NCBI GenBank assembly: GCA_028713245.1
Contig: JAQTOQ010000004.1
Span: 1-33,737, forward strand
Direction: 5' to 3'
Length of the DNA stretch: 33,737 nt
Source: Sulfuricurvum sp.
GTDB lineage: Bacteria > Campylobacterota > Campylobacteria > Campylobacterales > Sulfurimonadaceae
Shown piece after piece: positions 31,728 through 33,737 of the stretch (the first letter of the stretch is position 1; every line of letters starts with the position of its first letter). The translations under genes were made by a program, and so were the position numbers. The notes beneath the pieces were generated by a model. The model was not told where the DNA came from, searched no databases, and saw only the letters and a program-made list of their open reading frames with translations.

Positions 31728-31757
31728 AGCATAAAGATTTGGTATTTACTTTATGCT
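31728..31757 (-). terminator. inverted repeat spanning the methyltransferase-Vsr stop codon
   Basis: agcataaag / ctttatgct, 9-bp perfect arms at 31728-31736 and 31749-31757; no strong T tract. Confidence 0.4.
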
Positions 31758-33172
31758 GCCTTTTTCAATGGTAATTTTATGTGATCTTCAATATTTTTAA
31801 TGCAATTTTCTAGGTTATAATTGATTTCATCGTCCCAAAATCGTAAAACAGTCCATCCGCTTTTTGTCAAATAATCATTTACCTTATCATCACGGACTTT
31901 ATTTTTCATGATTTTGTCCGACCAGTATTCGTGGTTTGTTTTAATTTTTTCTACGGTTTCATCAAGTTTTTTTCCATGCCAAAAAGCACTATCACAAAAA
32001 ATAGCTAATTTATGGGAAGGAAAGGCTATGTCTGGTTTCCCAAAAAGATCTTTTGGACACACGCGATACCTGTAGCCTTTGTTCCAAAGAGCTTTTCTGA
32101 GTTTCAGTTCAATCTTAGTATTTTTAGATTTTATTTGAGACATATTATAGCTACGTTTTTCAGGATCAGTCTTATATAGTTCCGTTTGAAAAATTTGATT
32201 ATTAAATGATTTAACAGCCTTAAATAAAGCATCTGATACGTGCCATATTAATACGGGAGGAACAGCATTACCAATTGCACGATAATTTCTAGTATCAGAT
32301 CCAGAAAAAATAAAATCATCAGGAAAAGATTGGATTCTAGCGGCTTCCAAAGGCGTAAATCTTCTATATTTATTATTAATATACAATACTGGATCTACAC
32401 TATTAAGACTAGCCTTTGAAAGATGAGCGCTGATAGTATTGCAAGGAGCATCCAAATTTTGAGCACGACCTTTATTCATCTTGTCTTTGGCTTTTATCAT
32501 ACCTTCAATAGCTTTATCGCTGAAATAATATTTCTCACAGACATCATGTTCATTTAAAACAACTCTTGATAAAGGAATTTTTTCTTTTGGAGTTACTGGT
32601 GTTGGAAATTTAAAGTTTTCGAAAGTTTTTTTATCCCGAATTCCAACGATAAAGACACGTTCTCTTTTTTGAGGGATGCCAAAATCAGAAGAATTTAAAA
32701 GTGTATACGTCACATGGTATCCTGCATTTCTAAATGATTCTAAAATTAATGGAAAAGCTTGCCCCTGATTAGCAGATAAAATTCCTTTAACATTTTCAGC
32801 TATAAACATAGCTGGTTTACGCTCTTTTAAAATACGTACCATTTCGAAAAATAATTGACCTTTAATATCTTTATATCCTAGTCTTGGAGGATTTTGAGCG
32901 ACTACGGAAAAAGACTGACAAGGAAATCCACCTATTAATATGTGATGAGGGGGAATATCACTGCTATTTACTTTTGTTATGTCTTCTGTATGACATTTAT
33001 GTTCAAAGTTTTCATTGTAAATTGAGCAAGGGTAAGGATCAAAATCGACAGCATAAACTATTTCAGCAGGATGTTTTGCATATTGTTTATTTAGGTATTC
33101 AAACCCTCCTATTAGTCCTAAGTCAAGCCCTCCGCACCCACAAAAGAGTGAAGCAACTTTTAACGGTCCCAT
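31751..33172 (-). CDS. fused DNA C5-cytosine methyltransferase - Vsr-like endonuclease
   Basis: 473 aa; MTase motifs SLFCGCGGLDLGL, GGFPCQSFS, IAENVKGIL, FGIPQKRERVFIVGIR, TRNYRAIGNAVPP; C-terminal Vsr KRSYNMSQIKSKNTKIELKLRKALWNKGYRYRV..FGKPDIAFPSHKLAIFCDSAFWHG..EYWSDKIMKNKVRDDKVNDYLTKSGWTVLRFWDDEI. Confidence 0.93.
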   Translation of the reverse strand: MGPLKVASLFCGCGGLDLGLIGGFEYLNKQYAKHPAEIVYAVDFDPYPCSIYNENFEHKCHTEDITKVNSSDIPPHHILIGGFPCQSFSVVAQNPPRLGYKDIKGQLFFEMVRILKERKPAMFIAENVKGILSANQGQAFPLILESFRNAGYHVTYTLLNSSDFGIPQKRERVFIVGIRDKKTFENFKFPTPVTPKEKIPLSRVVLNEHDVCEKYYFSDKAIEGMIKAKDKMNKGRAQNLDAPCNTISAHLSKASLNSVDPVLYINNKYRRFTPLEAARIQSFPDDFIFSGSDTRNYRAIGNAVPPVLIWHVSDALFKAVKSFNNQIFQTELYKTDPEKRSYNMSQIKSKNTKIELKLRKALWNKGYRYRVCPKDLFGKPDIAFPSHKLAIFCDSAFWHGKKLDETVEKIKTNHEYWSDKIMKNKVRDDKVNDYLTKSGWTVLRFWDDEINYNLENCIKNIEDHIKLPLKKAA

Positions 33173-33737
33173 ATTAATAATTCCTCATATTTACAACATG
33201 TATCAGGAGTAAAAGAAACATCCACACCATTTTTTATTGAAATATCAATTTTACTCTCTTTGTATAGACGTACTGGATTTTGCATGACTAATAGTTTTTT
33301 GTCCTCTTTGCTCAAAAATAATCGATATACAAAATATCTATCACCATGACTATTTGCTGCATTCCATTCATTATCTGTAAGATGAAATCTATTAAAGTTT
33401 ATTCTTTTACTACTAATAGTAGTTTTAACTTCAATAAATCGTTTAGTAGCATCTTCTTCTACTGATGAGATATCAAACCCCATAGCCAAGTGAGTAGGGA
33501 TTATTTTAATAAGGTGTATTAGGTCTCCTCTGTCATGGAGTTTGATACGCATGCATTCATGCCCGTGTATCAAGGATTCTCCCATATCACCAATTTCTTT
33601 AGTTGTGATTTCTCCACCAGTTTCAATTTTTTCATGGAATGAGGCAGACACTTCTTTTTTTAGAGCTTCATATTCTTCATCGCTTGTAGCAATCAAAGAA
33701 ACGACATCTGTTTCAAACATTGCGGAATCAATAGGCT
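33160..33737 (-). CDS. DUF3883/NO VEIN C-terminal-like PD-(D/E)xK protein (5' end probably beyond window)
   Basis: GDMGESLIHGHE..MGFDISSVEEDATKRFIEVKTTISSKRINFNRFHLTDNEWNAANSHGDRYFVYRLF; frame stays open (PIDSA) from the ORF-track ATG at 33720 to the edge. Confidence 0.7.
   Translation of the reverse strand, partial: PIDSAMFETDVVSLIATSDEEYEALKKEVSASFHEKIETGGEITTKEIGDMGESLIHGHECMRIKLHDRGDLIHLIKIIPTHLAMGFDISSVEEDATKRFIEVKTTISSKRINFNRFHLTDNEWNAANSHGDRYFVYRLFLSKEDKKLLVMQNPVRLYKESKIDISIKNGVDVSFTPDTCCKYEELLIWDR

Follow-up and report, generated by a model that had tools for sequence, protein, structure and literature searches.

The window, that is, the whole stretch of DNA that was analysed, which is one whole contig of 33,737 bases, codes for a real and rare join of a C5-cytosine DNA methyltransferase (MTase) and a Vsr-type mismatch endonuclease in one polypeptide. 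The original prediction had assigned the two domains and taken the fusion to be genuine, and both of these hold up; the coding strand, the M2-type operon, the zinc-less class of the Vsr domain and the recurrence of the architecture were all absent from it. What is new here is that the protein is probably the M2 of a BpuJI-like restriction–modification (R-M) system, that its Vsr domain belongs to a zinc-less class and that such a fusion has probably arisen at least twice. Judging from its sequence, the fusion protein is predicted to function in T:G repair.

The fusion gene and its join

Table 1. Features of the fusion gene and the adjoining endonuclease fragment in the window.
Feature	Positions	Strand	Basis
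Fusion gene (probable M2::Vsr)	31751..33172	-	473 aa plus stop; single open frame; Pfam/NCBIfam matches for both domains
C5-cytosine DNA methyltransferase domain, residues 4-316	32225..33163	-	PF00145, E=5.9e-77
Inter-domain linker, residues 317-338	32159..32224	-	AF2 pLDDT; codon listing without in-frame start
Vsr mismatch-endonuclease domain, residues 333-468, zinc-less class	31769..32176	-	TIGR00632; fold match to 1cw0
Restriction endonuclease, C-terminal 191 aa (NOV_C nuclease domain)	33160..33735	-	PF13020, E=1e-13; cut by contig end

The frame of the fusion protein (P0001) runs, just as had been claimed, unbroken through 473 codons; it extends from ATG to TAA. The earlier call placed its coordinates and frame correctly but gave no strand; the gene is on the minus strand, and a frame check of the plus strand across the same interval turned up many stops. 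All the motifs that had been read from the sequence are present in the protein: FCGCGG, GGFPCQSFS, ENV, QKRERVF and YRAIGNAVPP in its MTase half, and KRSYNMSQIKSKNTKIE, GKPDIAF, FWHG and GWTVLRFWDDE in its Vsr half. The profile searches that were proposed as a check of these assignments likewise recover both domains, with PF00145 covering the MTase (Table 1) and PF03852, whose failure would have spoken against a Vsr fold, matching residues 334-402 (E=3.1e-26).

The other outcome named as fatal to the prediction was an assembly or sequencing error that merged two adjacent genes. Such an error would fit a draft assembly of 206 contigs with a contig end just upstream of the gene, the lack of any other Vsr fusion in the 40 other genomes of the genus, and the existence of a locus (L094) where M2 and vsr are separate tandem genes. 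However, collinear full-length fusions occur in two unrelated assemblies from another phylum, namely the single-cell genome of Candidatus Omnitrophus magneticus (L036) and the MAG chromosome of the Omnitrophota member bin103 (L037), both 52-53% identical to the window protein from end to end and with a similarly placed short linker. Further, the 60 codons that lead up to the conserved Vsr helix contain no in-frame ATG, GTG or TTG, and thus the Vsr part could not be translated in this frame as an ordinary gene of its own. Together, these observations rule out an assembly artefact, and the fusion survives as a feature of the genome; a merging error is accordingly very improbable.

Fold, residues and affinities of the two halves

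The MTase half scores above the curated cut-off of its profile and contains motifs I, IV (PCQ), VI (ENV), VIII (QxRxR) and X (GN), placing it among the C5 MTases; the NCBIfam model for dcm (TIGR00675) matches with E=8.3e-87. Its catalytic PCQ cysteine is Cys85, with ENV at 126-128 and QxRxR at 168-172, and the catalytic motifs are invariant in 38 M2 homologs. The domain shows 57-63% identity to unfused M2 proteins. The N-terminal part of the protein matches M.HaeIII and M.HhaI in the PDB, and M.HhaI is also the top structural match of the AF2 full-length model. No C5 MTase other than the fusion was found in the 89%-complete source assembly.

The Vsr half is recognized by the NCBIfam vsr model (TIGR00632) over residues 333-447 with E=5.1e-42 and 142.9 bits against a cut-off of 97.85. 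The PDB match of the C-terminal part is the E. coli Vsr (1cw0), and the domain modelled alone (pLDDT 89.5) again has 1cw0 as its best match (E=1.5e-8, probability 1.00). The full-length AF2 model, which serves for the domains and linker and not for their mutual orientation, displays two confident domains, with linker residues 329-332 and 334-349 at pLDDT <50; the linker between the two folded domains is predicted to be short and flexible or disordered.

In the E. coli Vsr, catalytic and wedge roles are played by E25, D51, F67, W68, H69 and D97, while zinc is bound by C66, H71, C73 and C117. A residue table showed that equivalents of all the former set, and of N93, are kept in the window Vsr (Asp381 corresponding to D51 and His399 to H69), as they are in the two Omnitrophota fusions and in a phage-borne fusion (L201) described below. 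In contrast, the residues at the four zinc positions of the window Vsr are A, K, D and D, placing it outside the E. coli-type zinc subgroup. Among the 51 Vsr sequences tabulated, 16 have C66 and 35 lack it. The latter, zinc-less class includes the window, L036, L037 and L201, and differs from the E. coli Vsr at the zinc ligands and at nearby positions. In a pattern observed post hoc, all 31 unfused zinc-less rows have an acidic residue at the position equivalent to E. coli 66, and two of the three MTase-first fusions have lost it, with Ala in the window Vsr (31832-32176) and Thr in that of L037, which could reflect relaxed constraint. The window Vsr also has a long terminal branch in the Vsr tree.

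The closest characterized Vsr that we met is gonococcal: an ORF of the zinc-less class in L307 with 43% identity to the window Vsr (tblastn), comprising 137 codons plus stop, i.e., 414 bp from its own ATG. The published ngoAXIIIV gene is of this same size (PMC6116569), and solely from gene size and class we infer that the ORF is V.NgoAXIII. This enzyme cuts T:G mismatches in every context and forms a group apart from V.EcoKDcm, and loss of its gene results in a mutator phenotype (PMC6116569). Thus, the zinc-less class appears to contain an experimentally active T:G endonuclease.

Probable operon context and origin of the fusion

Directly upstream of the fusion, and overlapping its start by 13 bp, is the truncated endonuclease (R), whose fragment is 46-49% identical to the C-termini of two full-length proteins combining BpuJI_N and NOV_C (L003 and L023). 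In all three R proteins of relatives tested with Pfam, NOV_C is preceded by the recognition domain BpuJI_N (E=1e-66 to 1e-100). We scanned a collection of genomes from 84,980 species with an alignment of M2 sequences and obtained at least 80 loci with an M2, in most of which the genes are ordered M1-R-M2, with both M proteins being C5 MTases. This pairing fits an asymmetric site, which needs one enzyme per strand. The L036 and L037 fusions, too, come directly after a BpuJI-like R. As R is cut by the contig end, with M1 and the N-terminus of R absent, the window's operon is reconstructed from these relatives; M1 and the BpuJI_N part of R were not found elsewhere in the 89%-complete assembly. 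Given the homology of the NOV_C fragment and the gene order in relatives, the fusion is very probably the M2 of a BpuJI-like type IIS R-M system and not a Dcm-like solitary enzyme.

Among the related M2 loci listed, most have no Vsr nearby, suggesting that Vsr is dispensable to such systems; unfused Vsr genes adjoin operons of this kind at L084, L094 and L101. The G+C content of both parts of the fusion gene (MTase 34%, Vsr 32%) is low against that of the flanking genes (40-46%), which points to acquisition of the gene from elsewhere. From the homologs compared, M2 seems prone to gaining additional domains at its C-terminus.

Several related loci display architectures of their own. Single frames of 847-884 aa at L054:3470-6010, L084:3437-6010 and L096:3359-6010 match a C5 methyltransferase as well as the BpuJI-like endonuclease and are apparent M1-R fusions. 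The Bacteroidales M2 proteins in L048, L050, L087 and L112 have a common C-terminal extension of 150-200 aa (KLYYFMPY...GIRDLYFIKIARVG), and an extension of another kind is present in L083, L115 and L116. The Bacteroidales extensions were considered as a hidden Vsr and ruled out, as those tested gave no Vsr or Pfam/NCBIfam match.

The architecture is sparsely distributed. A sample count found Vsr in 16 of 298 Campylobacterota genomes, with a long frame only in that of the window, and a corresponding count among 285 Omnitrophota genomes found the fusion only in the genome of L037, that of L036 having been reached separately. A fusion of reverse order is coded by a faecal phage contig (MT836809.1, an unverified record; L201:2929-4722), where one 598-aa frame has Pfam matches to Vsr at 19-91 and to the MTase at 264-583; in its relative MT839108.1 (L308) the two are separate genes. 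A viral scan with the single window protein gave no match. The plasmid and phage records H6, H13, H32, H50 and H117 were rejected as fusions, their domains being coded by separate genes, and the Omnitrophota Vsr domains in longer frames at L301 and L302 are not fused to an MTase; the Vsr ORF at L302:1348-2184 (279 aa) has a C-terminal extension that is possibly DNA-binding. We found no description of a Vsr–methyltransferase fusion in the full-text literature that could be reached; with most subscription papers and REBASE beyond that scope, we do not claim the novelty of the architecture as established.

Phylogenetic analysis of M2 was done with a careful tree of 41 domains and a quick one of 93 rows. 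In the 41-row tree, the M2 domain of the window forms a pair with an unfused M2 from a Photobacterium plasmid (support 98/93), and L036 and L037 group with an unfused Nanoarchaeota M2 (98/91); a tree constrained to unite the three fused rows is worse by 46.5 log units (AU p=3e-9). The 93-row tree (p=0.09 for a single fused clade) is not decisive, and the Vsr tree (AU p=0.47) gives no decision either way. Hence, a single ancient fusion is rejected by the smaller but more careful M2 tree, and the fusion probably arose at least twice, unless recombination carried Vsr from one M2 gene to another or it was lost on many occasions.

Proposed function of the tethered endonuclease and comparison with known systems

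5-methylcytosine promotes mutation, and in many bacteria a C5 methyltransferase is accompanied by a Vsr that limits the damage. What the computations show is the presence of both domains with their motifs and folds, the type of operon in relatives and the recurrence, whereas we infer the methylation target, the T:G nicking and the targeting by the tether. We consider it fairly probable that the protein is a site-specific M2 methylase of a BpuJI-like system with its own tethered T:G nickase. Its MTase domain would set 5-methylcytosine on one strand of the asymmetric site; deamination of this base to T would generate a T:G mismatch at the methylated site; the tethered Vsr domain would nick beside the T; and DNA polymerase I and ligase would restore the C by very short patch repair. 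Since the unfused zinc-less relative, V.NgoAXIII, appears to be indifferent to context, being joined to a site-specific MTase could both direct the nuclease to its targets and hold the two enzymes at a ratio of 1:1. It is plausible that the fusion links a mutagenic mark to its own repair in a fixed ratio.

Two other roles are conceivable for the Vsr part. One is that it acts as an additional restriction or nicking enzyme, so that the chain would modify and cleave DNA rather than repair it: the PD-(D/E)xK fold is common to Vsr and restriction enzymes, some defence systems employ Vsr-like nucleases as effectors (CoCoNuT type III-B, PMC11090510), and the zinc-less class is unlike the E. coli Vsr at the zinc and nearby positions. 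Nevertheless, the operon already has an endonuclease, R, with BpuJI_N and NOV_C in relatives; the domain scores above the cut-off of the Vsr subfamily and keeps the F-W wedge and catalytic residues; and its class appears to hold an active T:G endonuclease in V.NgoAXIII, all of which makes a second nuclease improbable. We deem it equally unlikely that only the methyltransferase works and that its Vsr tail is in decay or has just a structural role. While a position 66 that is no longer acidic in two of the three fusions, the long Vsr branch of the window and the other C-terminal extensions, without known function, in Bacteroidales M2 proteins would agree with this, the frame has no stop or frameshift, all catalytic residues are kept, the Vsr fold is confidently predicted, and two Omnitrophota lineages keep the full domain.

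Returning to the tethered nickase, the MTase domain could keep the damaged site in place for the nuclease attached to it, as mismatch binding by C5 MTases has been reported (Yang 1995, cited in PMC3804486). The fusion would also keep Vsr from outliving its MTase; in Caulobacter, free VsrA is harmful when the cognate methylation is missing from the cell (PMC12907096). Other Vsr proteins are stimulated by MutL (PMC6116569), and such stimulation would be missing here, given that canonical MutL was not found in the source genome or in 12 relatives. A MutS-like protein with a 980-aa frame (G000:C125:7005-9647) scores well below the MutS1 cut-off. We tentatively put forward, as a possible but rather doubtful extension, a convergent fusion of a context-indifferent T:G nickase to a site-specific C5 MTase, in which the MTase would act as address label and mismatch sensor, confining the otherwise promiscuous nickase to the methylated sites of the cell itself and allowing very short patch repair without canonical MutL.

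A single chain with both enzymes would make the coupling of methylation and repair a physical one, and its repeated, apparently independent fusion suggests that selection favours this coupling. With such a chain, one could also ask directly whether a promiscuous T:G nickase becomes sequence-specific when it is tethered.

Among known systems, the E. coli Dcm/Vsr pair (V.EcoKDcm) resembles the window in the genetic linkage of a C5 MTase and a Vsr from the same two protein families; however, its genes are separate (overlapping), its MTase is solitary and its Vsr is of the zinc type, whereas the window protein is fused and zinc-less. V.NgoAXIII appears to share the zinc-less type of Vsr with the window but is free-standing. 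The Vsr-like domain of CoCoNuT type III-B is also fused, though to a helicase, within a defence system predicted to target RNA, and not to an MTase (PMC11090510). The Omnitrophota fusions, L036 and L037, agree with the window in domain order, place in the operon and, approximately, length, and differ in the lineage of their M2. As for the BpuJI-type type IIS R-M systems (R.BpuJI, recognizing CCCGT), the R proteins of relatives match BpuJI_N, are in most cases flanked by two C5 MTases, have NOV_C as their nuclease part and are only distantly similar to BpuJI itself; most of the BpuJI-like operons found are without a Vsr.
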